This document shows positions 31,301 through 58,800 of a DNA stretch of 64,000 bases, piece by piece. Source of the DNA: Panaeolus papilionaceus (Eukaryota; Basidiomycota; Agaricomycetes; Agaricales); the NCBI GenBank assembly GCA_015501605.1, contig JADNRZ010000021.1:496001-560000 (forward strand), read 5' to 3'. Positions within the stretch are counted from its first letter, which is position 1, and each line of letters opens with the position of its first letter. A model generated the notes under the pieces. The model made no database searches. It saw nothing but the letters and a program-made list of their open reading frames with translations, and had not been told where the DNA came from. Position numbers and translations under genes: made by a program.

Positions 31301-32329
31301 TAGTTTAATATAAATGTTTGCATTTCAACACATTCACGTCCCGCCCGACGCGCGCGCCAAGTTCTTATCCGATGAAATCACCACATCCATTCGAAATGTT
31401 AAGAATGTCCTTCCATCAAAATGAGTGAAGCTCATCGACAATTCGACGACGCATGTGCCGATCAGAGCACCGATCGTCTTGATCTGACATCTCGAATTCG
31501 CGTTCAGCATGGGTGGTATCCGGATCCCGATTGCCGTGACACTCACATGCCACGTCATGGATGCCTCGATGTTTGCTCATGTGCATTTCACTGCATACAG
31601 GGAGCTTGTACTCCATCATCTCCTCCCTTTTACCGACTTAACTTGATACCACGACCACCCAGTGTTACATTCACAATTATCTTGCTACCATGGAAACTCC
31701 TACCACCGAGTACAAGAAAATTGAGGTTTTAGGTACTGTATCAGTGGAATTGATTGACCATCTCGAGGAGGTCAGGGGAAATTTAAGTCCTAGAGATGTT
31801 ATTTTGTGAATGGATACCTTTGTTCATATGTCCGATTAGTTATTAACCATTGTTTAGGATTTTAGGTCCCACAGGAGCAGGAAAAAGCACCGTAAGTCTT
31901 TGTCACCAGGAAAATGATTCGAGGTTGATGATACTCGGCTATAATTTCCTAGTTTATAGAAGCACTGGACTCCAACAAATCCCTTCAAATTTCCAGCAAT
32001 CAGCTCGAAGGTTTCACGCAGTCAATAACCCTCTACAGACTCATCAACACAAGTCATAAACATTATTATAAGCCACTTTATCTAGTCGATGTGCCGGGAT
32101 TCGCTGATACAAAGATATCGGAGATGAAGATTGTCTCGATGTTGAAGGGTTGGATTAAAGCACAGGTAGGGAAGTTACAATGTAGCGACTTTGTTGGTCC
32201 GCGGACTAGCTACAACGTAATGACTGAGTGTGATCCATGGATTGCCATGGATTTCCTACATTTTGGGTAACTACACTAAATAGTTATTTCATTAGATAGA
32301 ATATAAGTGAATTAATTATTACTAGTAGG

Positions 32330-32720
32330 TGGGTGGGTTGGGTAGGGTGGATTTCCGAGTGAGCGGCGGGTGAGCTGGAATGGGTGGATTGGTAGTTTTC
32401 CAAGGGAATGGGAGGGGGGTAGCGGGTAGGTTGGGGTGGGTGGGTAGTAGTGGATTGGGGTGGATTGGGAGATTTCCGCGGAAATGGGGGGAGGTTGGGG
32501 GGTGGTTTGGGGTGAGTTTATTGTAGTGGATTAGGTTGGAGTGGGCACATTGGGGTGGGTGGGTAGTAGTGGAATAGGGTGGATTGGTAGATTTCCGCGG
32601 AAATGGGGGGGGGGGGTGGTTTGGGGTGAGTTTATTGTAGTGGATTAGGTTGGATTAGATGAATTTACAAGGGAATGGGCAGGTAGGGATGGGGGGGTTT
32701 TTATATTTCCGCGGAAATGG
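32330..32720 (+). repeat. G-rich tract, left arm of foldback element 1 (mirror at 35790-36180)
   Basis: Runs such as GGTGGGTGGGTTGGGTAGGG recur on the plus strand, with the C-rich complement in the right arm. The spacing of G-runs could support G-quadruplexes. A similar tract occupies the same position in foldback element 2. Confidence 0.7.
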
Positions 32721-33190
32721 GCAAATTTAGGAATTTTTCAATGCATGGATTTTTGAATTTCCGCGGAAATGGGGAATTTTGAAAATGGTGGATTCTTGAA
32801 TTTCCGCAGAAACGGGTGAATTTGGAGATTTTCAAATGCATGGATTTGTTAATTTCCGCGGAAATGGGTGAATTTGGAAGTTTTTAAATACATGGATTTT
32901 TGAATTTCCGCGGAAATGGTGATTCAATTTTGTAGATTTCCGCGGAAATGGGGAATTTGGAAATGGTGGATTCTTGAATTTCCGCGGAAATGGGTGAATT
33001 TGGAGATTTTCAAATGAGTGGATTTGTGAATTTCCGCGGAAATGGTGGACTTGTTAATTTGTGAGCAAAGGTTCCGCGGTATCGGAAATTCATTCCAATA
33101 TTGAAATGAGTCAATTGTTGAACTTCCGCGGAAATGGTGGATTTTCTGTGGAATTGGGTGGATGCCATTCATAGATTTCCGCAGAAGAGG
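32473..33190. repeat. Array of 12-bp TTTCCGCGGAAA palindromes, left arm (mirrored in right arm)
   Basis: Nine exact TTTCCGCGGAAAT copies begin at about 32473, 32592, 32706, 32758, 32853, 32905, 32937, 32979 and 33031. There are at least four variants (e.g. TTTCCGCAGAAA), with spacings of about 32-120 bp. The mirror array in the right arm (about 35330-36040) has some CCGTGG versions, fitting C-to-T change at CpG. Each copy is itself a perfect palindrome and would suit a dimeric DNA-binding protein. Confidence 0.85.
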
Positions 33191-33997
33191 TGGATATTAA
33201 CAAACTATAACCCAAGGGTGTTGCAAACATTGTCAGCAAATAAGCAGAAGTAATTAACTCCTGCAGGTTGGGAAATAAGTTTCCAATTAAATTCTGACCC
33301 AGTACCATGTACCCGCAGGTAGTCTTTACAAAATGAATCCAAAATCATCCAAAACAAGCAACATTTGGCAGAGATACTAATATTTCAAGCATTTTCTGCT
33401 TGATTTTACACCGTTTCAGGCGCTCTTGGACCTGTTTTGAAGTCCGCAGGTACACCAGCTTTCATTCATGACCCGGTACCATGTACCTGCCGGTATTCCG
33501 CCCGAAACAAGTCCCAAATCATTCAAAACGGCTGTCATTTAGCTAAGATATCCATGTTTTGAGGATATTATGCTCAATTCTGCACCGTTTTGGGCGCTCC
33601 GGGCTTGTTTTGAAGCCCGCGGGAACACCAGAATACAACTGGAAACATATCAGACCATTTACTTCATCCACCCCCAGGTGGAAAAGCAATATTGATTGAG
33701 GAAAAGGCAGAAATCATCATACCTGCAGGCAACAAGGTGTATTAAAGTATGCTTTCCCGCGGGTAGCCCACATTTCATCAAACAACACCCTATCTAACTC
33801 TGGCATAAATTAGATGTAACTCCCTCAGTTCTGCATTATTTTGAGTGATATTGGGCTTGTTATGAGCGGATTATCTATGGCTACAATATGGTATGTATAT
33901 TCAGGTGTTCAGAGAATGATAGCAGTTGATCTTTGCGATATCTCCTCTTTTACAGGTACCCCTCTCAGCCCTACATCATAGATAAGGATATTTCTGG

Positions 33998-34509
33998 CAA
34001 TAGAGAGCATTCAAATAATGCTGATGTTCTAAATTTTAGACTTGAATTGTGTTCTACATGTTTCATTCACAACAAAGTTCCAGAATACACCTGACAGACA
34101 AGGACTGGACAACTATTTTACAGGATATGGTTCCAATGTACCATATTACATCCATTTTTGTAGCTTATATGACTGATATGTCGGATTAATGACCAAGAAA
34201 GAAGGAAACAAGAGTCAGAAGCAATTCTTAATGATATCTTGAGACTTTCTTCAACAAAAGTACCAAAGAAAACACCCACCAGACAATGGTGAGACAATGG
34301 TTAGACAGGATGTTGTTGAAACAGAAGCATAAGTCTCTTCTTCGTCCTGTTCAAACAACAAAAGTCAAAGAGAATACTGCATGGATATTAAGAATAATAA
34401 CATGTAGGACATATCTTGTCTCAAATACACTCATATTAGTGTCAAATGTTGTTTCTAGCACATACTCCCCTCTCATTGTATCATTATCCAATATATAACC
34501 CATGTATTT
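33998..34509. other. Unique centre of foldback element 1
   Basis: A 512-bp A/T-rich segment between the arms. The only open frame (34286-34498, 70 aa) has no recognisable motif or good context. No transposase remnant is visible. Confidence 0.6.
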
Positions 34510-36698
34510 CCAGAAATATCCTTATCTATGATGTAGGGCTGAGAGGGGTACCTGTAAAAGAGGAGATATCGCAAAGATCAACTGCTATCATTCTCTGAAC
34601 ACCTGAATATACATACCATATTGTAGCCATAGATAATCCGCTCATAACAAGCCCAATATCACTCAAAATAATGCAGAACTGAGGGAGTTACATCTAATTT
34701 ATGCCAGAGTTAGATAGGGTGTTGTTTGATGAAATGTGGGCTACCCGCGGGAAAGCATACTTTAATACACCTTGTTGCCTGCAGGTATGATGATTTCTGC
34801 CTTTTCCTCAATCAATATTGCTTTTCCACCTGGGGGTGGATGAAGTAAATGGTCTGATATGTTTCCAGTTGTATTCTGGTGTTCCCGCGGGCTTCAAAAC
34901 AAGCCCGGAGCGCCCAAAACGGTGCAGAATTGAGCATAATATCCTCAAAACATGGATATCTTAGCTAAATGACAGCCGTTTTGAATGATTTGGGACTTGT
35001 TTCGGGCGGAATACCGGCAGGTACATGGTACCGGGTCATGAATGAAAGCTGGTGTACCTGCGGACTTCAAAACAGGTCCAAGAGCGCCTGAAACGGTGTA
35101 AAATCAAGCAGAAAATGCTTGAAATATTAGTATCTCTGCCAAATGTTGCTTGTTTTGGATGATTTTGGATTCATTTTGTAAAGACTACCTGCGGGTACAT
35201 GGTACTGGGTCAGAATTTAATTGGAAACTTATTTCCCAACCTGCAGGAGTTAATTACTTCTGCTTATTTGCTGACAATGTTTGCAACACCCTTGGGTTAT
35301 AGTTTGTTAATATCCACCTCTTCTGCGGAAATCTATGAATGGCATCCACCCAATTCCACAGAAAATCCACCATTTCCGCGGAAGTTCAACAATTGACTCA
35401 TTTCAATATTGGAATGAATTTCCGATACCGCGGAACCTTTGCTCACAAATTAACAAGTCCACCATTTCCGTGGAAATTCACAAATCCACTCATTTGAAAA
35501 TCTCCAAATTCACCCATTTCCGCGGAAATTCAAGAATCCACCATTTCCAAATTCCCCATTTCCGCGGAAATCTACAAAATTGAATCACCATTTCCGCGGA
35601 AATTCAAAAATCCATGTATTTAAAAACTTCCAAATTCACCCATTTCCGTGGAAATTCACAAATCCACTCATTTGAAAATCTCCAAATTCACCCGTTTCTG
35701 CGGAAATTCAAGAATCCACCATTTTCAAAATTCCCCATTTCCGCGGAAATTCAAAAATCCATGCATTGAAAAATTCCTAAATTTGCCCATTTCCGCGGAA
35801 ATATAAAAACCCCCCCATCCCTACCTGCCCATTCCCTTGTAAATTCATCTAATCCAACCTAATCCACTACAATAAACTCACCCCAAACCACCCCCCCCCC
35901 CCATTTCCGCGGAAATCTACCAATCCACCCTATTCCACTACTACCCACCCACCCCAATGTGCCCACTCCAACCTAATCCACTACAATAAACTCACCCCAA
36001 ACCACCCCCCAACCTCCCCCCATTTCCGCGGAAATCTCCCAATCCACCCCAATCCACTACTACCCACCCACCCCAACCTACCCGCTACCCCCCTCCCATT
36101 CCCTTGGAAAACTACCAATCCACCCATTCCAGCTCACCCGCCGCTCACTCGGAAATCCACCCTACCCAACCCACCCACCTACTAGTAATAATTAATTCAC
36201 TTATATTCTATCTAATGAAATAACTATTTAGTGTAGTTACCCAAAATGTAGGAAATCCATGGCAATCCATGGATCACACTCAGTCATTACGTTGTAGCTA
36301 GTCCGCGGACCAACAAAGTCGCTACATTGTAATTACCTTATATCGATGTATACCGTGTTCTGTACTTCACACCTGTCAACACCCCGCGTTTGCCAGGCAG
36401 TCACCGACAGGTGCTTCGTACTTTCCAGGCTCTAACAGGTGTCACAACAGCCGAAAGTATCACTATTGTAACAATGATGTGGGACAGTGTCTGGAATGAG
36501 ACAGGAAGGAAGCAGGCAGAGGGGAATTTCAATCAGCTACGAGATGAAATATGGCAGGTAGGTGTGTGGTGGATATAACTTTATCTGTTCTGACCTTTTT
36601 TTTCAGGGATATGTGGAAAAAGGCACAAAGGTTCACAAGTTTTATAATACACAAGAATCTGCCCTTTGCATTCTGGATGAAGCTTTCGATTGTATTTC

Positions 36699-36723
36699 CA
36701 TCAGGAAAAACGGGAAATGCTTA
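36699..36723 (+). repeat. Left terminal inverted repeat of the Plavaka-type element
   Basis: CATCAGGAAAAACGGGAAAT then GCTTA. It matches the right end (49046 back to 49022) at 20 of 25 positions. The boundary is fixed by the interrupted GTPase frame. Confidence 0.85.
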
Positions 36724-36946
36724 TAATTTTAAATAAAGTACAATAAGTGAAGATAAGTAGAGGCTCACATGATTTGAGCTTATTGGGCCTTATCGTGACT
36801 TATGCCATCACAGTCATATGAGTAATTTACTTATTGGGAGATTATTACCGCATATGGCAAGGTACTTAATATAGTTCGAATCCAGCAAGCAATAAAAAGT
36901 TGCGAAAATATGGTGTATTCCAACTATGAGAAAAACACATTTTAAT

Positions 36947-37864
36947 CTACTCTTCTTTAGCTTTCCCTTTACCCAACTTCTTTGTCATACGGCTGAGAAG
37001 CTCCTCCGTCTGCTGAAGCTCTATCTCCAAATCCAAGCGTCTAGTGGCAAGAATCTGGGCCTGCTGATAGGCTTCGTTGTGAGTGAGGCCAGAAGGGGAG
37101 GGGATCCATGACAAGAACTCCGACCGGGGTGCCAGTTGATGAACAGAAGTGGAGGGGACTGTGGGATTGACTGAGGCCAACGAGACTGAGGCTCGGGGTT
37201 GTACCTGCATTGGTTGGATGGTGGAGGTGCTGACTGGTGACCAAGGAAACCCCGAAGAGCAGGGACTTGGAGGCAATACCGGAGAAGGCGACTGTTGTAA
37301 TGTGTTACAATAAAGTCAACTAATATTTCTAATGATAGAAACATACCTTCGATTTGAGGATACGACGCCTCTTTTTTGGAATCTTGCTCCTTGTAGCCTT
37401 TTGCATAGGCCTTGGGGGCATAACCACTCGATTACTATCATACTCTACCACTTGTCGGGATCCAGAAGCAAAGGGAGTCCTTGAAGACGCTTCATAGATA
37501 GGCTGCATGCGCCATAAAGCCAGATGCGTAAGCCTATAAAATTTAAGCAATTCGTGTGCCACATACCATGCGAGCTGCAGAGGACTGCCTTCTGACCTGA
37601 CGACTGAGTCTTCCAGCATGGCGGGGAGAGCCAGCATTTTGGTTTTTATTACTAGTCAACGGTTCCTGTATGATGGAGTTAGAAAGCTTAAACGATTGAA
37701 AATTGACTGACACTTACTAGTTCCACGAGAGCAGGGCTAGACTCGGAATCGGACTGATGAACTAGATCAGTACCGTTATCTGAGCCGCCTTGGTTTAATT
37801 GCACCTCTTCTTCATTATCACTGTCAGTGATAGATCCTCCATCTTTACCAGGTGGTCGCGACAT
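36947..37864 (-). CDS. Unknown acidic then Pro/Ser-rich protein of the Plavaka-type element
   Basis: On the minus strand a first exon begins MSRPPGKDGGSITDSDNEEE (37864) and reaches a gtaagt donor near 37730. A second, open from at most 37637 to about 37347, contains LQLAWYVAHELLKFYRLTHL and ends in a basic KKRRRILKSK run before gtatgt. The last exon (about 37294-36947) is Pro/Ser-rich, then helical (EAYQQAQILATRRLDLEIEL) and basic, ending KGKAKEE. The join between the first two exons does not fit phase cleanly, so the true start may be MLALP at 37637. The basic patch could be a nuclear localisation signal. The family is not recognised. It is the gene nearest the left end. Confidence 0.55.
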
Positions 37865-38047
37865 TCTTGATGAGTTGAAGTAATGGATGAGTGGTTAAAA
37901 AATTAGAGTTCAAGCGGCGAGCGGAGTTTGCTTACAGGAATGGCAAATCCCAGACTCCGACTGCGTTCCCCGTCCCGACGAAAACTTCTAGTTACCATTG
38001 GAACCTTAATTCCCGAGGCAAGAAGTCATTTTTTTTTGTACCCCTCA

Positions 38048-39155
38048 ATGGATTTCGACTCGGAGTTCGAGACGAAAGTCAAAATAGAGCCTGTGACTCA
38101 GACACCTACAATGCCACACGCCACCTCTGGCCAGGTTCCCAAACCGGTGATCCCTGTTAAAAGGTACGTGTTAACTAGATCCTTGACCACGGAAAATAGG
38201 ATTCACTTAACTGAGTTTTCTGGTAGATTTCAGAAAGCTAAGCACGACCAGGTATGTATAATCTTGTATCACTCAAGCTTAAGTGGCTGATGGTTTTGAA
38301 TTACAGCACCAAGAGTCATCGCCTAGTGGTGCACGGTGTCGGCAATTTCGACGTCCGACAGGGCCTGCTGCAGAGCTGCTTCAGAATGTGGAGGACCAGT
38401 TGGAGAGTCTCCGTGTTGTCCGACGCGCCACTTCTTTTTTCTCTTTTGATGAAATCGAGCTGACACGGGAAGAAATCGAGGAGCTTGAGGATGCTCGAGA
38501 AGAAGATGTCAGTTGCTTGCGGGGCGGCGAGATTACATTCTTCGAGCGCGCAGTGCGCGGAAGAATAGAGGATGAGCACTGGCGAGCTCGTCGTCTCAAG
38601 CCTGCAAACTCCACTCTCGCTCAACGTCCTTTGGTGTCTCGGAATCCTTTTCTTGACCCTGTGGCCCGGCAAGGGTATAATAGTGGAGAAAATATTGGTG
38701 GACTGGGTCCAGCTGACCATCGGGATAACGAAGTCAGACCAGCCCCGTTGCAGGTGTTAGGGGGTTATGAAAAGATCACAGTTGTTGGTGATGGTGACGG
38801 TGGTGATGGTGAAAATCAGGTTGGTGAGCCTGCTGCGAATGGAGGTGGTTATGAAGATGAATCCGGTGATAGTGGTGTTGACGTTGGGCCGGATGATGGA
38901 ACTGGTATGCTTGCTGGTGAGGATGGGATGAAGGTCGAGATGAGAGAAACAGACCCAAACGAAGAGGGCAGTGGTGAAGCTGTCGAGGATAGGATGAGCG
39001 AAACAGACTCTATTGAGGGTAATAGTGACGAACCAGTACAAGCCCCCGTTACGCCTCAACGCCCTAAAGTTCGTGCAGTCTATTCCACGTCTGCTCCACA
39101 TGTCAAGCGAGAGGCGTTGCCTTTGAACCCGGTTGAGCGGGGATTCATGTTCTAA
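38048..39155 (+). CDS. Unknown acidic protein of the Plavaka-type element (329 aa, three exons)
   Basis: Exons 38048-38163, 38227-38251 and 38307-39155 with GT-AG introns join in phase to 330 codons including stop. The N terminus is MDFDSEFETKVKIEPVTQ. Residues about 75-145 are charged and helical (ELTREEIEELEDAREEDV, then EHWRARRLKPANSTLAQRP). The second half is Gly/Asp/Glu-rich with a Ser-Glu-Thr tail. No known domain is recognised. The last 399 nt lie antisense to an open frame that continues the Spt5-like gene. A role in transposition or transcription of the element is possible from location only. Confidence 0.65.
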
Positions 39156-41456
39156 CCAGCATTCCTTGCCCTGTCGCTTGCCCCTAAACGATAGGGTTCC
39201 ATCGCCCTTTTCGCGTACACTGACCACCATTTCCGTTCCTGGTATCCCGCCCCCGTGTACGTTAACCTTGAAGCTCAGTCCCACAAGACGCGGATCTAAA
39301 AGTTCATGTGTCGATGACGCGGTGACGGTGACGTGTGTCTGCGAAGCTTCTCCTGAAAGAGGCGTCAACGAGTTTGGGTCCCAGGCGGGGGTTGATGGTG
39401 AGAGATTAGTAGCGCCATGCATAGGAGTGTGCATCGGGCTTTGATTAGAGGTGGCGCCCTGCTCATCGGATCCGTCCCCGACATCGGAGTTTAACGTCTG
39501 GCTCGGAGGAATTGTCGTTGGCGGAGGGATATACATGTGTCGTTTCTTGAAGTAATCTCGTAGTTGGTCCTTAGTACTGCAAGTAAATATAATCAGTAAT
39601 GGTGATTTGACAGGTAGTAGATGCTTACTTCGCCTCAACAACGTCCCCATAGCCAAGCGTGAGGTCGTGGAAGGGAGCATTGGGATTATACTCCTCCAGG
39701 CGTACTACCAGTCCATAATCGTCACCTCGGCTGAACCAGTTTTGAATTGTTCCGTGACGTCCTTTATGAGCGGTCTTCACGATCAACACTCTTAGCCCAA
39801 CCCACGGTAGATGGTCTTTTGGAATGACCGAAGGTCCCGATGAACGATATGTAGAACTAACGAACGGGGTGGATGAGAGCCCAATCCAATTGACGTGTGC
39901 CTCAACGTGCTGTCGTCGTGAAAGAAATTAAGTTAACTGTGGACTGAGAAATCCATAACGAAAATGGGACCGTGACTTACCAAAACCTTATGATCTTGGG
40001 TGGTGACTATCGTTGCGATATCTCCGTTCACAGCTATAACCCAGCCATTTCTCTCCTTGTAAGGCCCACTGGCTATGTCGACGTAGTCCCCGACCCCGAC
40101 CACTTTACGAAGAGCCTTCCATGGAACTGAGAAAAGACCGCTACCATCTTCGGCCTCCATCTCGGCAAATGTTGCCTCGATCTTGTGTACACGTCCTCGT
40201 CGTCCGGAATAAAAGTCCTTGATGAAGTCCTTGTGTCGTATGGCCCATTCTTGAGGTTTCGGCGAATAGTATTGTGCTGAGATCGCCAAAGGGTGATTGC
40301 TTGAGGCGAAGTTGAAAAATGTTGAAGATGATATAACTGGAGGACCAGGGCGAATTCCATAGAAACTACAGAACCCTCGCAAGAGCCCGTACTCAAATTT
40401 CGACGTGCCCACTTTGTAACAATTGGGTGACGTCTCCTCAACGTCCCAACCGCGACTTTTGGCTTCATCGGGCTCCAGCCACAGACGTGCCTCAGGTAAA
40501 ACCTGCATCCTCTTGCGCTTCTTCATGACACTTGCACCTTCTAACACCTCTCGTTCAATCATAACACTTGGTATTCGTGGTACGACTAGTAACTCGACCC
40601 CCCATGATTCAACGCGCACCACCAAGCCGACATCTCCATCATAAATCGACCCATCGCGTACTGTTACCCACTGTCCTACCACCGCCTTCTCTGCCCGTCC
40701 CTTCATACTCAAGACCTTGCTCCAGTCACCCTGCGCTATTCCCTCAGTCACTGGTCCATTTTTTGTTTTCCTAATCCCGGGCGTCTTCATCAAAAGCGAT
40801 TTCACATCCCCGTCCAACATCCCCTCAACGTACACATAACCCACAATAGTTGGTCGGACTATGATACTGGCGATTCTTTCTTGTCGGATTTTTTGGTAGA
40901 TAAAAAACATCACAGATTCTTCCTGTCCAGGCTGCGTATGTAGTGAGTACAACGGTAGATTTTTGAATAAATGAAAAGTCTCACCACACAAGCAACGCGG
41001 TACAGAGGGTAAGCAGGTACTAAAATCGTGCCGTCTGATGATCTTCCTGCGACTGTGGTGACATTGGGCGTCGCGCGTTCATTCAGTCGATCTTGGAGGT
41101 GTTTCATGAAGGAGGCAGTTTCTTCCTCTTGCTCCAGTTCGTCTTCTTGAAGCAGTTCCGCCCATGTTTTGAAGGCAGTTGATTGAGGGTCGTCTTCCAC
41201 CTCATCTGGAATGAAATAGTCTGAAGCAATGGTCGATCAGATAGTTATATGCATGAAGAAATCATGGATACGCACCCAACATAGAATCTTGGTCCTCTCC
41301 TTCACTTCCAGATTCCACCTCCTGTTCGTCATCGTCGACATCGACTTCAAGATCCAGAAAAGGATTGGTCTGAAAATAATAATAAAATTCGTGAGTAGGG
41401 GTTACTTTACCACACATTGTTAGCATGAAGCTACTTACACGTCGCTTTCGGGGCAT
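38757..41456 (-). CDS. Spt5/NusG-like (NGN and KOW-type) protein encoded within the Plavaka-type element
   Basis: Minus-strand exons 41456-41439, 41369-41276, 41220-40985, 40931-39981, 39909-39629 and from 39576 join in phase. The N terminus is acidic (FLDLEVDVDDDEQEVESG). Then come an NGN-like segment (RIASIIVRPTIVGYVYVEG...PGIRKTKNGPV) and KOW-like segments (VVGQWVTVRDGSIYDGDVG; VGDYVDIASGPYKERNGWV; PWVGLRVLIVKTAHKGRHGT). The C-terminal part contains WDPNSLTPL and LLDPRLVG, as in Agaricomycete 'KOW domain' proteins I recall. Eukaryotic Spt5 binds RNA polymerase II and controls elongation; whether this copy does is unknown. The last frame stays open to 38757 (799 aa in total), but it overlaps another gene antisense, so the real end may be nearer 39150. 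Confidence 0.75.
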
Positions 41457-45969: not shown

Positions 45970-48724
45970 ATGGACTTGTCCGACAGCGAAATTAATCGCA
46001 AGCGGGTGGCTGATCAGAGGACCTTACGTCGCAAAATGGACCTACAGGCCGCAAAAGAAGCAGCCGATGAGATGACCATTGCCGCTGGTCGAGGTAAGTC
46101 ATTTTTTTTAAAAAATTTCTGCTTTACACTCAATGTCTTGATGCGCATCTCACCTTAGGTCAAAGGAAGGCCATGGAGAAAGCAAAGAAGAATGCCAGTA
46201 AGTCTTGGTTTATTGTCATCCAGAACTATCTCTTGTTGAAAATTTTCTCAAATAGTATGGCGTGAAGAAAAAAGAGGAACCAAACGCAAGCCCTCTCGTT
46301 CCCCTTCCCCCGTGGTTAAAAGAAAAAGGACAGGTATTTTCTGTAGTTCAAGGTTCATCTTTTTTTTCTTCATCTGATAAAATTCGTTGTAGCTGCCAGT
46401 ATCAAACAGACCGACTCGGAAATATCCACAGCAACCCAGCGCCTTCCACGTCCCAATACTGTGAAAAAAGGTATGTATCCTAGTCGCCTCATATTGACAC
46501 CAACGCTTACTATACATATGCAGGGACTTCGTCATCTACTAAGACCCACAGGACAAAAATCGTCGTCCCAAGCTCCGACATTTCCGCAGACGAGTCTCCA
46601 GTTGACCTCTCTTCGGATGAACAGTCGTTCTCCGATGAAGAACAATCAGAGGACGGTGATCACGGTGATGAGCTCAGCTGCGACGACGACAACGAAGCCT
46701 TTTCGGAAAGTGGCTTGAAACGCCAGATGCTTGAAGAAGTACTCGTTCATTTTACATTGTTAAAAACTTACTCATCTTTAATAGATACCCTCCATCGGAG
46801 GCGGCGTAGAGAACATCTTCGACGAGGACGATGATGTTGAGTTTGTACCTCGCAGAAAATTATCATCCTCTCCTATGGAGTACCCAGACTCCGTGTCTTC
46901 GTCGCCATCACCAGACATCAAGGCTCACAGCGCCAGGGCGTCCAACAAGTCCACGTCCAAGGGTGGCTCACAGACCACATCCAAAAAAAATGAACAAGTT
47001 TCGGTGAGTGGAAACCAATTGACCTTTATTATGCTAACAAGTACTACGCAACAGGACCACAACGACGATTTGGGTGATTCGGATTCGTCGCTTCCCAAAA
47101 GCATTCTCCCTGAACACTTAATCACTGGCAAGCGGAAGAATGTCGACAAGGTAAGCACGTTCAAAATCAATACATCAGTGTCGATGAGCGAAATTCACTC
47201 ACCCTTCATGTGAGTACAGAACAAAGCTACTAATAAGAAAGTCAAAAAGGTACGGACTACATATTTGTTGTCTTCATGCAATTGTTAATGACAACATCAC
47301 AGCGCGACTTGGCAATGTTATCAGAGGTACGTTCATTCCATCATCAATGAGATTTGATTTCTGACAGCACACAATACTAGCGATCATCGTCCGTCAAGTC
47401 TCAGGCTATTGGACGATCATCCATTAGCAAGACCCAACACCGTCACAAGCTCATGGTGGCCAAAGTTGCGGCAGCCCCATCGGATGATGAGCCATCAGAC
47501 GAGAACCCTTCAAGTTCACTGGCACCCCCTTCAGAGGACGAAACTGAATGGCCTCGTGTCGCACGACTCGACCTGCGAGGCAACGGAAAACTTCTCAACC
47601 AAAACCGATACATCATCGCCCTCGTTCACCTCGCAATCGACATTGTTCTCAAAACCATTCATCTCGAAAATCCCTGGCCCGAACGTGAGAAGTGGGCCGC
47701 CTATCGCCTAGAAATATTATTAAAGGCAGCCAGGAAATTGCTGAAGAAAGAACGGGAGTACTCCAAGATCATTCTCCGCGTTCAGCTTGACCCGACTTTC
47801 TGTAACAAAGTCGGCAAGTGGGTAAGTTGTTCTATTTTTATATTTCGCAAACTCGATTACATCTCCATCACCAGTTCATGGACCGCATCTCACACTGCCG
47901 TAATGGTGTCATTGCTGCTGCCCGCCGCGAAATATGCGCATATCGACTAGGAAAGGGTGACGAATGCATTGAGCGAGTTAGGCTTCTCATGCTCGACGAC
48001 GCATATTGTCACCCTGGCGGCTTTGCAACGATGGGACCTGAGAAAAGGGTGAGTAATATTCATTATAGTTGACAGTTGCTTTGTCTCACTGTACCCAGAT
48101 CGAGTACATTTCCGAGAGCACGCCCTCCAAGAACCTTAAGTTCATGAATCCTGTCATCATCGATACGGTTATCGAGGCCTTTTTCTCTAAGTCGACATCC
48201 TCAGGTTGGAAATACAGGGATTTATACGAGACGTCACTCCCTGATCGCCCGGAACACCAGAGACCCGAGATTCCAATGAGCTTGCTCGCTTTGGCTGCTG
48301 CTGCAGTAAGTCATATTAGTATTCAAGTTGATCATGACAATAACTTTTCTTACATTCCTTCAGGTTCGTACCGCCATCTGGGAGATGCGAGACGGGGTGA
48401 TTCCCCTCACTGCAAAGCAAGTCAAGCAGTCGGGCTCTACTGATGCTCGCGTTCAAGACCAGTTCACCGGAGACGCAGTCTTTGGAGTGTACCAGGGTCA
48501 CATCAGCCACCTCAAGGCATTGCAAGTGAAAGGAAAGGTCAGCTATCATAAGCTCATGGCAGAGATCTACGAGCGAGTTAAGTAAGTATTTTTTTTCTCT
48601 TCAACCTATTTTTCTGATCATCTTCGTTAGGGCTCGTGATACCGGTGGAGGGTCTGGTCTCCCTGACGGCAAGTTCACCAGTGCTCCTCTTGCAGGTGTT
48701 GATACTAGTTTCCTCGAAAATTAA
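45970..48724 (+). CDS. DUF6532-type protein within the Plavaka-type element (678 aa, 14 exons)
   Basis: Exons: 45970-46093, 46159-46197, 46256-46333, 46393-46470, 46524-46738, 46785-47003, 47055-47150, 47220-47249, 47303-47326, 47381-47821, 47875-48048, 48099-48305, 48364-48581, 48631-48724. They sum to 2037 nt, an exact 679 codons. The first about 320 residues are Lys/Arg- and Ser/Asp-rich, with KRKPSRSPSPVVKRKRT as a likely nuclear signal. The C-terminal half is folded (RYIIALVHLAIDIVLKT, YRLEILLKAARKLL, VIIDTVIEAFFSK, LLALAAAAVRTAIWE). This matches my memory of the Agaricomycete domain DUF6532, whose function is unknown. It is divergent from the transposase and is the gene nearest the right end. 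It may help transposition or target chromatin, which is inference. Confidence 0.8.
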
Positions 48725-49046
48725 TTGTCATGTAGTAATCCTGTCATCATCATATTTCTATCAATGTCATTGTTAAACCCCCACTCATTATTACTTGTGT
48801 GATATTACCTAAGCTTATTACAGGGTTTGAATTACTTTTTTTTTACTTATGACATGTATATGCCATGGTTATATTGCGCTTATTGATGCTTATTGATGCT
48901 TGATGGACATGGAATAAGTTGCGATTTCTTTGGGACTTACATTATTCTACTGATTCCACATATCCTGCTTATCTTCACTTAATATACCTTATACCTTTGT
49001 ATTGTTGCTTATGTGTTGCTTTAAGTAGATCCGGTTTTGCCTGATG
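48725..49046 (+). repeat. Right end of the Plavaka-type element with subterminal repeats
   Basis: A/T-rich DNA with repeated cttattgatg, tgcttatct, ttgcttatg and ttgcttta strings. It includes the complement (48968-48981) of the left-end motif TAAGTGAAGATAAG and ends in the terminal inverted repeat at 49022-49046. It probably also carries the 3' end of the DUF6532-type transcript. Confidence 0.75.
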
Positions 49047-50084
49047 TCTGCGCCCGACTTTGCACTTGTGCGAATGGCATACTCTCAGCATATTCGAGAG
49101 AGCTCGTTTGGCTCCAACCTCTATAACGACCTCCAGCAACGGATTCAAAACCTCAGCCTGGAAATTGCCAATTTGCAGTCTGACTTACTTGGAGCAGCAG
49201 AACAAGACGATGCGCAGCTGACTGCAATGCTTATTCTGCAACTCGACTCAGCACAGAAACTCCTTGCCATGTTTGAGCAGGAGATGCATGAATTTGGACC
49301 GCCGCCTGCCAACACCCCTCCAGTTCACAATCTAATTTCAGTATCACCCAGATCTAGGACACTAGCTGCGGTCTCCCAGACATTAGATGTACTTACAGAC
49401 ACGCCTCCTGTAAACGCCATTCAAATTGTGGATTCAGCATCAAGAGAATCCGGGGATCAAATACAGGAACCAGCATCGTCGATGCCTGTTCTTGTTCTTC
49501 CTGCTACACAAATATCCGACCCTGTTTATCACCAACCACTTATGGTTCTTCAAGTCAACACTTCTCATGCTCCCCACACGCCCGTTTCTCTGCCAGAAGA
49601 GCAAATAATTGACCCTATTTCGATTCAGGCAAACCCCAATAGCCTTCGCAGAGCAAGGCTCACCAGAGTTGTGGACTGGATGAAGGGGTGGATCAGGAAG
49701 TTGCGCGAGCGTCTCAATAATTGATTTATCTACTTGGTGCGTCTGCTGTCCCATAATGTTAAAGAGTTGCTAACATGTGATCATTAGCACTTGGTTCTGT
49801 ACCACTCCCGTTTGTTGATGAAGATACAATTTTCTTCCCTGTTATTCTATTTCTCGTTTCTTTGTTGTGATATTTTTCACTCGTATCTCGTAGCACTAGC
49901 GCCCAACTTTCCCTTCTCTCGATGACCGCTCTTAGTATTCATACCATCTCTACGAGCTTGTTCTATACAATATATTTATTCCATCGCGACAGTAATTCTC
50001 ATACCTTTTGGCCTAGTCTGATTGATCAATATCGATGCCGCATGAAAGTGAAGGAGAACTTAACAGCCGAAGTACAGGAATGGT

Positions 50085-50285
50085 TCTCGGGTGACATAAA
50101 TCTGATCGGATTGGAGCGGGAGACTCAGAGGACAATGCGCAACTCGATGCCATTCTGGTTTCACAACCTGACAAGACGCTACTTGCAGCATTCGAGGGTG
50201 GGATATGCGAGTTTGGATCACCCCCTGTGACGCCTGGGACCTTTGCCATTTTCTCGAGACTCGCACTCCTCCCATCCCACATCTG
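50085..50285 (+). pseudogene. Decayed C-terminal fragment of another GTPase-like copy
   Basis: In one frame the DNA reads SDRIGAGDSEDNAQLDAI, then LLAAFEGGICEFGSPP. This lines up with SDLLGAAEQDDAQLTAML...LLAMFEQEMHEFGPPP of copy C, 0.8 kb upstream. The 5' part of the gene is absent and the frame ends shortly after, near 50289. It is a fifth, older member or a local partial duplication. Confidence 0.65.
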
Positions 50286-51423
50286 TTGTTGGGACACCAT
50301 TTCTGAAGCTTATTGATAACAGATTTACCTACTGTGTCCGTAGTTTCATGGTGTTAGTCTTTAGAGCGTCGCTCATAGGTGTTCAGCTGTCACGTATCTT
50401 TCTTCTCTCGTTCTACGTGAGCCTACAATGTACCTTTCTCAGGACACCTTGAATCCTCAATTTTTCAATCTGATGTCTTTTGTTCATTATCTTCATTCAA
50501 CCATGTTACCTACATACCAGCCTACAACCTTTTCCCAACTGTTCTCTGTGATCAACATTCCCAGTACTGATGTTAAGACTCGACTCATGACATCCCTTGC
50601 TTGTCGTGTTTGTTCATTTCATTAGTATTATCGTCTTACATGTCATCGTTTTACATCGGATCCTTCGTGATACTGACACGCAAGCCAATGAACTCTAATG
50701 GTGAACTGTGAGCCTGGAGACTTAACGGTTCCCATCCTCAGTTATCGCATAGCAAACAGGGTCGTAAGCACATTAGGTAGGTTAATCGAATGTCACACAT
50801 ACCTTGCTCATTAATCCTGAATACTCGACTTTGGAAGGAAAATGGTATTGAGAAATAGGATAGAAGCGCTGATGAGAGGAGAGAGAACAACAGCAACTAC
50901 AGATAGTACTGTTGACCAGAACCGCATAGTTGGATTTTGCTCAGTTCACACTTTGACTCTTCGGCTGTGTGTCGGCTCCTACTGACACCCCCCTCTGATG
51001 GAGTCGCACGCCCCTATTTATTGACGGAGCCTTCATGAAGTTTACTGAAGTAGCACAAGTTCATGTTGGAATGTAGTGTGGAAATTATTTTTCACTTAAT
51101 TTTATATGTCAAATATTGAATATATGTAGCCAAGACAAAACCGAAAAATTCTGGCAAGGACTCGGAGTTGTGAGTAATTGATTATAACTTGTACTGTGGC
51201 CGTTATCCTGGGTGTGTCCATTCTATCTTGGCTAGTGTTGCTGCGAGCACGAGCGAACTCCACTCGAGGTGGCCTCAAGTTTGACATTTGGATATAAAAG
51301 GGAACTCGACTCGAGCTGGCTCGATCCTAATATAGAAGAGTGGTTTGATGCGGCCAACACCTTTTCTTTGCCAACACTGTGAATTCTGAGTCCTGCCTAT
51401 CTGTCACTAACATTCATCGTCGT
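50286..51423. other. Gene-free stretch between array remnant and second retrotransposon
   Basis: Mostly A/T-rich with scattered short frames and a TATA-like gatataaaag near 51292. No recognisable domain, RNA gene or repeat boundary was found. Confidence 0.35.
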
Positions 51424-51426
51424 TGA

Positions 51427-52040
51427 TGAGCAGCTATAGCCCCTACACCCTGGAATAGGATTGTAGTAATTATTCAATTAGTATTGTTCATCTCGCTTCC
51501 TTATCACATGACCTCCGTTTCACAGCTGTAGTCATGTGACCTCCGTTTCACAACCTCTTTAGTTTAACTATTAGTTTAGCTCACGGCTCCCTCTCGTGAC
51601 CAATTCATTCCCAGCCCATACTTGCAGAGTCGATGCACTTAGCGCTCATAAAACCTGTAGGACGACATTTATCCCCTTCTCAAACACTCATAAATCCCCT
51701 CTTCATTTCCCTCCACATTTTGCTTTTATCCCATACCTTTCAACATCTAGTTACATTTTATGATTCAATTCTTTTGTAGTTTTACATTTCACTCCTCATA
51801 TTTTAGGGTTTTATTACCAGTTAATTGGTTGTATGACCAGTTCATGTGTAGTTTATGACCAGCTTATGTGTAGTTTATGACCAGCTTATGACAACCTCAG
51901 CTCCCTTTTGGTTAGTTACTTCTAATATATAAACCATGTATTTAGGATAGTTTTAAGGAGAGACAATTTTCGCTTCCTTTCCTTCACTCAGATTAAGACA
52001 TCAAAATCATTCTATTTCTAATCCACTATCTACTTCTACA
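51427..52040 (+). repeat. 5' LTR of the second Ty3/gypsy element (right edge approximate)
   Basis: Begins TGAGCAGC. It holds two close copies of catgacctccgtttcaca (about 51507-51551), a short tandem repeat gtgtagtttatgaccagctt (about 51845-51895) and the TATA-like atatataaacc (about 51929). The right edge, perhaps ..TTCTACA near 52040, cannot be set because the 3' LTR is truncated. Confidence 0.75.
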
Positions 52041-53034
52041 ACTACCAAGGTCAACAAGTAGGCCCTCTGCATCGAAGTCCGTGACCCGCAACCTCAGAGC
52101 GCCCCCTTCAGCAATTCGCTTTCTGTGTTATTTACTTTATTTGCATCGTTAGCCGGATTGCACGCGCATCAAATTGGAGCCCACCGCGAGGGATTTCAAA
52201 CTATTGCGTCTACTCGTTTCCGAACCCTCCGCCAACCCTCACATAGAGAGGTTGACGTTCGCTCATTTGAAACTCGATCCAACCACGAAACTGACACCGA
52301 GTCAGACGATTTATTCGAACCGATACCAGCTGCCAAAGCTACACACAACAACCTTTCTCCTTTAAATTCCGGCTCCCCGCTTTATCTACAGTCAGACCTC
52401 CCACCCGATCCACAGAACATCAGCAACCATTTCAATAACTGGTCACCGTTTAGACCTCTCTCAGCCACTCACAAATCACCAAATCATTCAAGTCCTCAAT
52501 CCTATACTCCACCAGGCCTTCCATCATCATATCTCAACTTCCACCCTCTCTCAACATCAACCAGCATCGACCTCGAAGCACTTTTAATTCCTCGTTCACC
52601 TGAACCACTCCAATCACCACCTCCATTAGCTCAAGCATTGCTTCCTTCACATATTCAGGTTATGGCAACCACACCTTCCATGCCGCTACGTGGAGAACGT
52701 GGCGCACCAACTTTCAATACCAAGCACCCCACTGACATACACCGATACTTTACCGCCCTTGAGACTCTCTTCACTCGCTGCTCAGTACAGCAGGAGATTG
52801 ACAAAAAGTCTTGGGCAATTCACTACCTCGACTCGACTCTAGCAGACTCTTGGGAAGCTTTACCTGAGTACTCCGATGCAACAAAGACCTTTGCCGATCT
52901 CAAGACCCAACTTCTTGACCTTCACCTGTAGAGGCTGGCTTCATTAATGAAAGACTGTCTTTCGACAGTGAGTGCTCATTTATCAGAACTGTCCATGGGC
53001 AGTGACTGTCAATAGGCAGTGGGCTGGCTTTTGT

Positions 53035-53300
53035 CAGTGGGGGGGGATTTTCCGGGGGTGGGGGATGGGTAGGGGGGTGGGTAGGGGCATATAGGGGGTG
53101 AAATAGGTGATATTCCGGGTGTAGGAGGATGGGTAGGGGGTTGGGAATAGGGGGGATGGATGGGGGGATGCTGGATAGGGGCTGATGGCTTATCTGGCTG
53201 GGTAGGGGTAGGGGAAATATTGCCGGATAGATATGATATGGGTATGGGGGTGTAGAGAAAAAAATCAGGATCCCGGAATGGGTATTTTCGGGGTGGGGGG
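53035..53300 (+). repeat. G-rich tract, left arm of foldback element 2 (mirror at 57180-57450)
   Basis: Dense runs such as GGGGGGATTTTCCGGGGGTG and GGGTAGGGGGGTGGGTAGGG, with the complement in the right arm. It lies just inside the terminal repeat, as in foldback element 1, and could fold into G-quadruplexes. Confidence 0.7.
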
Positions 53301-53479
53301 ATCAGTGGTTGGCGAGCAATTAAGGAAATACACTCTCAGAGCTGGTGATAAATCAAAATAAATCGAAAAAATAATATAAATCGCAAATAGCGCGCTCAAT
53401 TCTGCTCCGATTAGGCTGAAATTTTGAACGCAGCCTCCCACATATGATCCCTATCGACCCTTAAAAAATGTTTTTTTAT

Positions 53480-54640
53480 ATGGGTCACTTGAAAAGCCCC
53501 TATCTTTGGCCCAAACAGTATCCTGCTCAATATTGCACCGCTCTGGGCACCATTTTGGATGATCTATATATCGTTAGAAAGCTATTAACAGCCTCTATAA
53601 GATCCCACCATCCGATCCACCAAATTGTACCAGTAACCCAGCAGATCAGGTTCGCTTTTTCCGCTTTTTTAGCCCCTATTCCCCCTACTACAATTATTTC
53701 CTCAATATTGCTTCGCTTTTGGCACTATTTGGGGGGGGATATATATCATTAGAAAGGTATACACTATATCTATCCATTCATGTGGTCTGATCTGCCAAAT
53801 GTGGCCACAGAAGCAGCAGATCTGCTCTGGTTATTGTGCATTGATTAAATGAGCCCCTATTTGCAAATCAGATCTTCGTCCTGATCAGGAATATTAATGT
53901 GATGTCATTGATCCCATTTAATCTCGTCAATCCTCATTAATTAGCTTCGCTTTTTTGGGAAATTGGTATCACTGATCTGCTCTCAGGCACTAATGACATC
54001 ACACTAATTAATATTCCTCTTCCACCATTATTGCAGCATTTATTCCACCGCTTTTTTGGCCCTTTTATATGGATATATATATATCACTAGAAAGCTACAG
54101 TTGTCTAGTATTTGAATCTGATTTTTACTTAGTTAATTCCCTCCAGTAGATTACCCAAAACAGCTCCGCTTTTTTGATAATCAATAGCCCCTATTTATTA
54201 ATAGCATTATTACTGCTGCATTTTCCACCGCTTTTTTGGCTCTTTTTCTGCACACCATATATACCATTAGAAAGCTATAAGTGTCTAGTTTAAGAATCTA
54301 TCATTATATTATCACTATCCTCACTGGGGACTGCACCATTCAATTTCGCTTTTTTGGTAATTAAATGGGCCCCTATCTTTCATTATATTTCTTTGTGCAC
54401 CATTTATATTTATTCCCTTTATTATTTTAATTGACATATATATATCACTGGAAAGCTACAATTGCCTACTTTCAGAATCTGAAAACAGAATATAAATGTT
54501 GTGCTTATGGAGGGAGTAATTGCATTTCGCATTTTGGGTACCAGAGCGTGGGAACACACCTTGATCCTCCTTCTCCTCCTCCCCCCTCCGCTTTTTTGGC
54601 TTCATTCCTCCACACTCCCTGCAGCTGCTAACCTGAAACT
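53480..54640. repeat. Degenerate tandem modules of foldback element 2 (mirror at 55840-57010)
   Basis: About five to six repeats of a unit whose conserved pieces are agcccctat, (c)cgcttttttggc and atatatcattagaaagctat, separated by variable A/T-rich DNA. The frame of 94 aa seen on both arms (53468-53752 and its mirror) is a by-product of the repeats. Confidence 0.65.
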
Positions 54641-54652
54641 TGGTACACATTT

Positions 54653-55833
54653 ATATATACTATATATATATATATATCTCCCCTTATATGCAAACTGAAG
54701 AGGTTCCACTCATTCTATTCACCAATTAAATATTAAAATACCAATTTGCACCATATATACTTAATAAACCATGCTTTTGGCTCCTCTACTGCCCCCAAAA
54801 CTTTTGAATATTACTCATTGCATGTAAAAGCATTGAACTTCACACTCAACCGCTTCAAAAGTTCAAGGAACAGAATAGAAAACACTAAATACTACCTCAG
54901 GGTATGCATAATAGTAATTTGTGAATATCTTCATGAATATTGACCGCTTCAACATGCTCCAAACTGCTCTGAGGACGCTTCCATTGTGCCTTCAAAAGTA
55001 GCCCACCTCCAAAGGATTCTGAGCAGGTCTCAAAATCGTTCCAATTTCCACTGATAAGCTTATGACAGAGGATCAGAGACAAAATAATTTAATCAGAACA
55101 TACAGATACATGGAGAGACATGATATGTAATGTTCACAAAAGGTTTGAAGTGATTTGGATGATTGTGGAAGGGTAGAGCCTCAAAAAAGCGGTCACAAGG
55201 AGTTTGATGTAGTGGTGATGGTGTGTATTCTTGAAACATCCAGTATCAACTATGATGGTTGCACACAATTTTGAACCTACAGATGGCTACACTTGTCCAA
55301 ATCACTTGGGGTTTTTTACATTGTGTAAATATAGTTAGTATATTTGTTTCCTGCTATTTATGAAGTATAGATACTGTTGCTATGGTATAGTAAATTGCAG
55401 AATGGTGTATTTTAAGCCCTGCATATATATATGGCTAATATTACAAACGTGGCTCAACATATCAGGTGGTGGGCTGTGTAGAACATTAAATATGGTGTAT
55501 ATGAACGCTTGGACAATGCTAGAGATATGTATATGCAGTGAAATACTGATGGATAAAGCCATAGGAGCCCAGACTAACAGGAACATGCATTTTGCTAATT
55601 ATACATGCAAATATACATATACATAATGCACTTTCATTGGATTTCAAATCCCCAGTATGCAATATTGATAAAGCAATATCGTTTACTGGCATACATCATA
55701 CAGAAGCATTACATTTTGGTGCGCTTTTTTGAGAATTTAAGGAGTTACATATTAATATGCTGATAGAATGCAAAATAGTGTGTATTTTAGCTATTGGGCC
55801 GGTGAGATCCATTTAATAATGATTATAAAGAGG
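54653..55833. other. Unique centre of foldback element 2
   Basis: About 1.18 kb of A/T-rich DNA between the arms. Frames are short (88 aa at most) and without motifs. No transposase or RNA gene recognised. Confidence 0.55.
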
Positions 55834-58800
55834 TGTACCAAGTTTCAGGTTGATAGCTGCAGAGGGAGTGGAGGAATGAAGCCAAAAAAGCGGAGGGGGG
55901 AGGAGGAGAAGGAGGATCAAGGTGTGTTCCCACGCTCTGGTACCCAAAATGCGAAATGCAATTACTCCCTCCATAAGCACAACATTTATATTCTGTTTTC
56001 AGATTCTGAAAGTAGGCAATTGTAGCTTTCCAGTGATATATATATGTCAATTAAAATAATAAAGGGAATAAATATAAATGGTGCACAAAGAAATATAATG
56101 AAAGATAGGGGCCCATTTAATTACCAAAAAAGCGAAATTGAATGGTGCAGTCCCCAGTGAGGATAGTGATAATATAATGATAGATTCTTAAACTAGACAC
56201 TTATAGCTTTCTAATGGTATATATGGTGTGCAGAAAAAGAGCCAAAAAAGCGGTGGAAAATGCAGCAGTAATAATGCTATTAATAAATAGGGGCTATTGA
56301 TTATCAAAAAAGCGGAGCTGTTTTGGGTAATCTACTGGAGGGAATTAACTAAGTAAAAATCAGATTCAAATACTAGACAACTGTAGCTTTCTAGTGATAT
56401 ATATATATCCATATAAAAGGGCCAAAAAAGCGGTGGAATAAATGCTGCAATAATGGTGGAAGAGGAATATTAATTAGTGTGATGTCATTAGTGCCTGAGA
56501 GCAGATCAGTGATACCAATTTCCCAAAAAAGCGAAGCTAATTAATGAGGATTGACGAGATTAAATGGGATCAATGACATCACATTAATATTCCTGATCAG
56601 GACGAAGATCTGATTTGCAAATAGGGGCTCATTTAATCAATGCACAATAACCAGAGCAGATCTGCTGCTTCTGTGGCCACATTTGGCAGATCAGACCACA
56701 TGAATGGATAGATATAGTGTATACCTTTCTAATGATATATATCCCCCCCCAAATAGTGCCAAAAGCGAAGCAATATTGAGGAAATAATTGTAGTAGGGGG
56801 AATAGGGGCTAAAAAAGCGGAAAAAGCGAACCTGATCTGCTGGGTTACTGGTACAATTTGGTGGATCGGATGGTGGGATCTTATAGAGGCTGTTAATAGC
56901 TTTCTAACGATATATAGATCATCCAAAATGGTGCCCAGAGCGGTGCAATATTGAGCAGGATACTGTTTGGGCCAAAGATAGGGGCTTTTCAAGTGACCCA
57001 TATAAAAAAACATTTTTTAAGGGTCGATAGGGATCATATGTGGGAGGCTGCGTTCAAAATTTCAGCCTAATCGGAGCAGAATTGAGCGCGCTATTTGCGA
57101 TTTATATTATTTTTTCGATTTATTTTGATTTATCACCAGCTCTGAGAGTGTATTTCCTTAATTGCTCGCCAACCACTGATCCCCCCACCCCGAAAATACC
57201 CATTCCGGGATCCTGATTTTTTTCTCTACACCCCCATACCCATATCATATCTATCCGGCAATATTTCCCCTACCCCTACCCAGCCAGATAAGCCATCAGC
57301 CCCTATCCAGCATCCCCCCATCCATCCCCCCTATTCCCAACCCCCTACCCATCCTCCTACACCCGGAATATCACCTATTTCACCCCCTATATGCCCCTAC
57401 CCACCCCCCTACCCATCCCCCACCCCCGGAAAATCCCCCCCCACTGACAAAAGCCAGCCCACTGCCTATTGACAGTCACTGCCCATGGACAGTTCTGATA
57501 AATGAGCACTCACTGTCGAAAGACAGTCTTTCATTAATGATTCTAGCCTCTATGGCTGTGACCTTTACAACCAGTCTAGCCTCCGATATACACTCCCTGA
57601 CCTCCACACACTGATTGGAGAGTGTAAACTCCTTGGTCTTCGAACGCTTCAGGATCTCACCGACTTCCACCTTCGCTTCACCACAGTCTCCACATATTTA
57701 GTCACTGCTGGTATACTTGGTAAAACTGAGCAGTGTCGTGCCTATACTCAGGTTTTCAGCGATGCACACTGTGCTCAAATGTCGAATCGCCTTCAAATTC
57801 ACCTTCCAAATCATCATCCCAGCATTCCCTATTCAATGGATGAGCTCTACGACGCCGCTCGATGGGTACTTCAGTTTCTACCCTCTTCCTCTGTCCCATC
57901 CACCAATATTCCGGGTATTTTACAGATTCCATTCGGGCTCCCACCTCCGGTCATTCCCAACACTGCTATGTCACCAAATTCATCTAATTCACCTCCTTCG
58001 AACCCTGGTTATGTCAAATCGGAGCAACTTAATGATATACTAGCTTGATTCACTCAATCCATCGTTTCAGCTATTCAAACCTCTCGTCCCAGCCAATCTA
58101 ATTCGAACAATAACACCTCTAGCACATCTTCGAACGCCGGACCACCCTACAATTGCCGTTTCTGCACTGGCTCAGGTCATTTTGTTCGGGAGTGCCCAGT
58201 AGCCAACACCTACATTGCACAAGGAAGGGTTATGAAGAACCTCAAAGGTCGACTGGTTCTTCCCTCTGGTGATTACATTCCCAAAGAGATTCCTGGTGCT
58301 ACCCTTTGTGAACGATTTGATGAATGGCATCACCGAAACCCAAACCAAACCGCAGCCACTGGAGCCATGCTTCAAGAGGTGTTTCCCTATCTTCCTTTGC
58401 CCCAACATTCTCCTGTCGTCCTGATTCGTGCTTCCGCTTTCACCATGGAGGATCGTTTAATTCTCATGGAAGCAGAACTTACTGCTCTGTGATCACAGCG
58501 ACCTGCTTTCGCTGTTCGTACCTGTGCCCAGAGGAATCAAGGTGTTGAGGACACTGATTCAGATAGCCCAAATCGTGTTCCAACCCCTTCAGTCCCTTTC
58601 ACTCCACCCAGAACCCCTGCTGATAGAACTATCAAGCCAATTCGTCAGGAAGCACCAGAACACCCATTTCGAAACGCTAAGGACGCCGCTTATGCCCCAC
58701 CCAGAGACAGAAACTTCGCCGCTGTTCCGAAGCCTATTCCTGCATCGAAAAAGGCTGATCCAGCCTATCGAACTTTACCACCCATCCACAAGCCGGAAAT

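Follow-up and report, generated by a model that had tools for sequence, protein, structure and literature searches.

KDZ transposons abound in mushroom genomes, yet little has been written on their ends. KDZ and Plavaka elements account for about half of the DNA elements of Marasmius oreades, whose description places their end motifs in a supplementary figure (PMC8290104). The Kyakuja elements of Laccaria are described with 7-bp target-site duplications and CA..TG ends, in two families reported without inverted repeats, and Zisupton and Dileera with 8-bp duplications (PMC12730594). Cryptococcus neoformans carries KDZ1, KDZ2 and KDZ3, elements of about 9-11 kb that were caught inserting in a reporter gene; shortened KDZ elements, by implication, were not caught moving (PMC12810828). 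Here we analyze two giant palindromes in a window of 64,000 nucleotides from Panaeolus papilionaceus (GenBank assembly GCA_015501605.1, contig JADNRZ010000021.1, positions 496,001 to 560,000; our C14:496001-560000), using genome searches that cover the contigs of this 50.9 Mb genome. Both palindromes, element 1 of family 1 and element 2 of family 2, are very probably non-autonomous KDZ DNA transposons of the Kyakuja type, which would be moved in trans by the KDZ transposase of larger elements with the same ends. Palindromes and larger elements have their unlike tips and 7-bp duplications in common, resemble each other in their terminal blocks and, in family 2, agree in their dyads; together with the KDZ domains found inside the larger elements, this is the basis of our assignment.

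Unlike tips and 7-bp target duplications

Element 1 (32163..36344, forward strand) is 4,182 bp long and ends in two different tips, which read inward are CAGGTAGGGAAGTTA on the left (32163..32177) and GATATAAGGTAATTA on the right (36330..36344, reverse strand). The 20-mers formed by tip and arm start have 30 exact matches in the genome for the left tip and 24 for the right. On the forward strand the right end reads TAATTACCTTATATC, and the pair CAGGTAGGGAAGTTA.. / ..TAATTACCTTATATC is found in 19 complete copies, which were picked by near-exact tips, so that their tip conservation is no test. Between the tips, an inverted repeat forms the left arm (32178..34002) and the right arm (34505..36329, reverse strand) around a centre of 502 bp (34003..34504; 16 genome matches, two of them partial). 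When part of the tips is included, the repeat covers 32167-34002 and 34505-36340 with 502 bp between; mismatches fall at six places within tip positions 1-12 and then at 677, 678, 688, 696 and 874 alone before 1836, the arms being inverted copies from position 13 inward.

Element 2 (52923..57558, forward strand; 4,636 bp) also has unlike tips, CACCTGTAGAGGCTGG / CAGCCATAGAGGCTAG. Comparison of copies places the left tip CACCTGTAGAGGCTGGCT at 52923..52940 and the right tip, CAGCCATAGAGGCTAGAA when read inward, at 57541..57558 (reverse strand). Its arms (52941..54657, and 55824..57540 on the reverse strand) enclose a centre of 1,166 bp (54658..55823), which has at least 40 genome matches at 86-100% identity (the best 40 of 104 candidates). 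The inverted repeat including part of the tips runs over 52929-54657 and 55824-57552, again with 1,166 bp between, and shows six mismatches within tip positions 3-18 and then none before 1692; from position 19 inward the arms are inverted copies.

The sequence-only reading had described both elements as lying precisely between TA duplications. Our arm comparison bears out the palindromes and their near-perfect inverted arms of 1.7-1.8 kb, but not those boundaries, as the TA belongs to the conserved tips and the true ends lie further out. For element 1 they are 15 bp outward on both sides, in sequence that is conserved among complete family-1 copies and differs between left and right, and for element 2 they are 8 bp outward (with CACCTGTA at the left end and CAGCCATA at the right), likewise conserved between copies.

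The target of element 2 exists uninterrupted elsewhere in the genome. Its left flank has one more occurrence, C5:1292742-1293241, where the sequence of the right flank follows directly, with TGACCTT present once and no tip bases (the flanks are matched at 97.8% and 98.4% identity; contiguous in L042). In the window, TGACCTT stands on either side of element 2 (52916..52922 and 57559..57565, forward strand), a 7-bp duplication. This bears directly on the earlier proposal that the palindromes are TA-inserting foldback elements, Tc1/mariner-like or similar. Such elements would account for the TA at the inner edge of both tips in element 2, and for the TTA at the same place in element 1; the sequence outside the TA, however, is conserved between copies, and the empty site refutes a TA duplication for element 2. 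We give this explanation practically no chance.

Duplications of the same length recur across copies. The family-1 sample comprised 20 loci, 17 of which had a left/right tip pair and yielded 18 elements, or 19 with the window copy (L036, L050 and L052 had no pair, and one overlapping pairing in L046 was skipped). An exact 7-bp duplication flanks 12 of these 19; L049 matches at 6/7 positions, L047 at 5/7, and L033, L038, L039, L045 and the window copy at 3/7 or fewer. Four further family-1 pairs were found, exact in C51 (12.3 kb) and C27:25517-28486, and matching at 2/7 in C37 (577 bp) and C4 (2.7 kb). The C37 pair (C37:110913-111489) is the size of a miniature inverted-repeat transposable element and has both family-1 tips without a matching duplication. 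For family 2, we considered eight elements without genes that pair a left with a right tip (window, C8:457942, C31, C4, C10, C7, C14:927660 and C14:776418): five have exact duplications, C7 and C14:927660 match at 6/7, and C14:776418 is unmatched. The length agrees with the 7 bp of Kyakuja among KDZ elements, and not with the 8 bp of Zisupton or Dileera.

The sequence-only reading had also suggested looking for more copies. The arms of elements 1 and 2 have at least 66 and at least 42 genome matches, respectively (best 40 candidates scored). A single-copy local inversion duplication is ruled out by the multiple matches to arms and centres.

KDZ transposase genes between the same ends

The KDZ transposase domain (PF18758) has 134 matches genome-wide, many of them exon fragments and 6 of them below the cut-off. 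From 80 KDZ places, in which fragments belonging to a single gene had been merged or discarded, we counted those lying within 8 kb of a tip, two genes (C37, C21) each being counted with two tips. Around the right tips of family 2, KDZ places lie inside in 14 cases and outside in 3, the 78 tip matches including chance ones (a reversed-pattern control gave 16). Ten of the 14 inside lie at 2.4-3.6 kb and point to the tip, and 4 point away. The left tips of family 1 (44 of 49 matches used, five chance-like ones being left out by eye) gave 6 inside versus 0 outside, the distance being 4,633 bp on C23 and again on C27; the right tips (30 of 34 used, four left out) gave 2 versus 1.

KDZ transposase is encoded by elements with the same ends as the palindromes. 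At C8:613001-647794, 34.8 kb with both 20-base ends of element 1 and two KDZ matches is bounded by an exact duplication, TCCACAA. Both 16-base tips of element 2 enclose a KDZ-bearing element of 28.3 kb at C21:385199-413543 (TGACAAG, exact), and tips nearly those of element 2 enclose one of 13.3 kb at C34:1669468-1682732 (GATGAAG, exact). A KDZ-bearing element of 22.9 kb at C54:20372-43249 has variant tips and an exact GAATGTC duplication. Nested insertions may be included in these larger sizes. Compared with Pfam, pieces of the C34 gene matched CxC2 (PF18803) at E 4e-38 and KDZ at E 6e-31. The sequence-only reading had suggested arms that act as binding-site arrays, and a search for an autonomous partner with its transposase gene between similar arms. 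Elements of this latter kind are present: the same tips accompany KDZ domains, and inverted arms occur wherever end sequence was compared, at C8, C20, C23, C27, C34 and C37. The window has no KDZ gene, in keeping with that reading's palindromes without transposase: searched by tblastn with the C34 KDZ gene divided into pieces of exon size, it returned one match, at E 0.79. A coding centre is rejected, as two open reading frames (ORFs) per element had no Pfam family (four chosen from 20 and 25 listed, flanking ORFs included).

Palindromes and KDZ elements also share terminal sequence. The terminal block of element 1 (32163..32325, forward strand; inverted copy at the right end) is common to the KDZ-bearing elements on C23 and C27, with 85-88% identity over 151-157 bp, and is followed by a G-rich tract in both element 1 and C23/C27. 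C23 and C27 each have ends that are inverted copies of one another, at 100% identity over 522 bp in C23 and at 99.4% over 502 bp in C27, with matches extending beyond 1 kb. Inward of the terminal block no alignment was found between element 1 and C23/C27; past it, the element 1 arm and the C23 KDZ arm have 10 common 11-mers, more than any of 100 shuffles (at most 6). In family 2, the terminal 101 bp of element 2 are 86-87% identical to C34. Three 16-bp dyads, ACTGTC-N4-G(A/G)CAGT (52954..53020, forward strand), occupy offsets 32, 66 and 83 counted from the tip and are repeated at the right end, and the same offsets hold on both ends of C34, where the spacer letters differ. These dyads are likely to be transposase binding sites. 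The palindromes have longer arms than C34, whose own stop at about 416 bp, and thus did not simply inherit them from that element.

In the mechanism that we propose, KDZ transposase from the larger elements would act on the palindromes in trans, binding the terminal dyads of both arms. The productive pair would be one left and one right tip, and insertion would proceed by cut and paste with a 7-bp stagger. A palindrome would be the remnant of an element that lost the gene block between its inverted arms and retained a short centre.

A second domain was seen beside some KDZ matches. TET/JBP (PF12851) has 6 matches in the genome, 4 of which lie within about 4.1 kb of KDZ and are weak, below the cut-off (C24:387378, C10:954035, C61:16043 and C23:2142824); the sole match above the family cut-off lies away from KDZ. 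The placement of these weak matches is like that in published TET-bearing Kyakuja.

Arms, centres and neighboring sequence

We compared the arms within and between copies, aligning 16 of the 19 family-1 copies (L037, the 2.1 kb element of L046 and L051 were excluded for short or broken arms) and, starting from the centre, the eight family-2 copies that were retrieved as loci by their centres. Mean arm divergence was 0.0013 within versus 0.042 between copies in family 1, and 0.0070 versus 0.077 in family 2, where arm identity is 97.3-100% within and 80.7-98.0% between copies. In each family, 0 of 20,000 relabelings were as low, and in all eight family-2 copies the strictly closest arm is the copy's own other arm. 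Gaps in family 1 follow suit: the two arms of one copy differ by 0-10 gap columns (154 in L041), as against 83 to the nearest other copy for L042, 87 for L043, 153 for the window copy and 225 for L045. L042 and L043 belong to one group, and the larger gap values of L048 and L049 are due in part to shorter arms. Simple inheritance of two arms predicts that left arms group with left arms; this grouping is unseen, which supports joint evolution, and the arms of a copy evidently evolve in concert.

Arms of one copy would pair, by folding or between sister chromatids, and undergo repeated gene conversion; sometimes the paired arms would also cross over. Crossing over between arms leads one to expect flips of the centre, and the 502-bp centre is inverted relative to the tips in 4 of the 13 family-1 copies that have it. 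The same family-1 tips enclose a different centre, of 882 bp, in L048, L049 and L051, and one of these three is inverted with respect to the other two. The palindromes at C35:53029-56578 and C38:151031-154580 have lost the centre, together with some 176 bp of one arm, and their unequal arms are joined directly.

Arm identity could also come from rebuilding of the palindrome off one arm at each transposition, by hairpin or foldback synthesis, and not from later gene conversion. This would fit the strong within-copy identity in most copies compared, as well as three elements with like tips: two with two right tips (C1:936440-940315 and C21:418206-422129) and one with two left tips (C23:2157612-2173321). 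Rebuilding from one arm should, however, copy the tip too, and unlike tips persist beside identical arms; in the window elements, arm identity extends to the very edge of the tips, which nonetheless differ. Furthermore, none of the three like-tip elements has a duplication. We regard rebuilding as unlikely and favor conversion between arms. One left and one right tip would be needed for movement, and the three like-tip elements would arise by exchange.

Exchange between copies would also produce swapped duplications, and L038 (C57:3191-8006) and L039 (C50:22780-27596) have each other's (GCTTTTG and CCATAAG). The C57 and C50 flanks are exchanged through the element, by translocation or by misassembly through the 4.8 kb repeat, which look alike. 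A misjoin at these two loci would be in keeping with a wider suspicion, that the palindromes are assembly artefacts of inverted-repeat reads; against it stand the many copies with differing flanks and exact 7-bp duplications, as well as the empty site, and the probability of an artefact is very small.

The sequence-only reading had seen one plan without common sequence in the two elements. This holds, as blastn between them gave no match and their common k-mers do not exceed those of shuffles. G-rich tracts lie near the ends of both as described, at 32350..32800 in element 1 (on the inward strand G 0.44 and C 0.06; its tandem units measure 76-119 bp) and at 53030..53330 in element 2 (G 0.48, C 0.07; both on the forward strand). 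The arrays of short modules are clear in element 1, where tandem modules occupy 32431..33060 (forward strand), several of them containing TTTCCGCGGAAA, which occurs nine times in the left arm; in element 2 they are weak, with two short arrays scored and no more. Long, internally repeated inverted arms around a short centre are present in both, the element 2 arm being weakly repetitive, and "foldback" therefore serves as a description, but the supposed lack of a named family gives way to a probable home among KDZ (Kyakuja-type) transposons. The suggestion of G-quadruplex-prone ends found no support beyond base composition in the window: 4 motifs in the element 1 tract and 2 in that of element 2 compare with composition-matched shuffle means of 1.84 and 2.40. 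The tracts of the window, C23 and C27 all lie within dinucleotide shuffles, which rejects enrichment there; C34 has 1 motif, where shuffles average 0.15 and reach at most 2.

Both elements lie in sequence with ORFs nearby. Those at 31953-32162 and 36333-36575 flank element 1 and read like one interrupted gene. A Pfam search with them gave no match, and we take the gene to be GTPase-like from its LVDVPGFADT motif. One ORF of the element 1 centre was likewise without a match in Pfam. The target of element 2 resembles a Gypsy-type retroelement; downstream, ORFs at 58493-63345 have an integrase zinc-binding domain above the cut-off and RNase H domains just below it. The name Gypsy, and that of gag for the upstream gag-like ORF that holds element 2, are our assumption.

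Assignment and relation to known elements

Several observations weigh against the KDZ assignment. An exact duplication is missing in 7 of the 19 family-1 copies, window element 1 included, which has flanks TAAAGCA / GATGTAT and no duplication. Among KDZ elements with unlike tips, exact duplications were found in four of the eight examined (C8, C21, C34 and C54); C27, C37 and C20 have none, and that of C14:936457-947865 matches just with a one-base shift. In the arm comparison, the own arm is strictly closest in just 6 of 16 family-1 copies, the other ten falling into near-identical groups or, in L041, having an unlike arm pair. Palindromes and KDZ elements align just in terminal blocks of about 100-165 bp, at 84-89% identity. 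The right tip of family 1 ends in TC, not TG, and the Kyakuja of Laccaria are described without terminal inverted repeats, while long ones stand here just inside the tips. In our view, missing inverted repeats are a trait of the two described Laccaria families and not part of the definition of the transposase group.

The ends themselves speak both ways: those of family 2, CACCTG..GGCTG, fit CA..TG, and those of family 1, CAGG..TATATC, have the CA. Duplication length and family-2 ends favor Kyakuja, the family-1 TC end and the long arms do not fit its description, and the elements are provisionally filed by these traits.

The similarity of palindrome ends to KDZ elements could have another meaning, namely that the palindromes are sources of hairpin RNA silencing KDZ elements with common ends. 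Judged from the arms, a transcript through an element would fold as a long hairpin. As an account of what the palindromes are, this is improbable. A broader idea builds on the KDZ assignment and is offered tentatively, as something we would not bet on: KDZ here may need two different tips and its inverted arms may continually rewrite each other, giving a self-correcting palindrome whose tips are kept apart by selection, and gene-less palindromes may also give rise to hairpin RNA that keeps the parent KDZ elements in check.

Membership of the P superfamily, alongside Drosophila Galileo, has to be considered, since Galileo shows traits seen here, namely 7-bp duplications, long internally repeated inverted arms, exchanged duplications and middle segments in both orientations (PMC4168063, PMC2775673, PMC3573991). 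The exchanged duplications of Galileo are ascribed to ectopic recombination between copies (PMC2775673). Galileo differs in its P-superfamily transposase and animal host, and unlike tips go unmentioned in the available parts of its descriptions (PMC2775673, PMC4168063); in the available part of the study in D. mojavensis, terms for arm conversion or homogenisation were not found (PMC3573991). In P. papilionaceus, the transposase within the same tips is KDZ, in searches that did not include one for P transposase, and we hold a P-superfamily origin to be highly improbable. As KDZ elements, the palindromes would resemble Galileo in working, with a different transposase. Mutator-like elements differ in having another transposase and make duplications of 9-11 bp. 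The likeness lies in long terminal inverted repeats that contain sites for transposase binding (PMC3310237), the binding sites here being putative.

Closer at hand, Cryptococcus neoformans KDZ1-3 are alike in KDZ transposase and terminal inverted repeats, but their repeats measure 139-241 bp, their duplications 8 bp (KDZ1) or 4-8 bp (KDZ2 and KDZ3), and they carry CxC1 where C34 has CxC2 (PMC12810828). No description of KDZ palindromes or foldback KDZ elements was found in the available portions of the literature searched, which is not to say that none is in print. Asymmetric tips allow polarity, flips and exchanges to be read in each copy, making arm-to-arm conversion traceable in many natural copies.

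The elements are most like the Kyakuja of Agaricomycotina, in their 7-bp duplications, the CA..TG ends of family 2 and the KDZ transposase of larger elements (PMC12730594). Unlike Kyakuja as described in the available text, they have unlike tips of 15-18 bp with long inverted arms inward of them, gene-less palindromes are common, and family 1 ends in TC (PMC12730594). Unlike tips that hide long arms might explain the reports of Kyakuja without inverted repeats, and they show annotators where to look.

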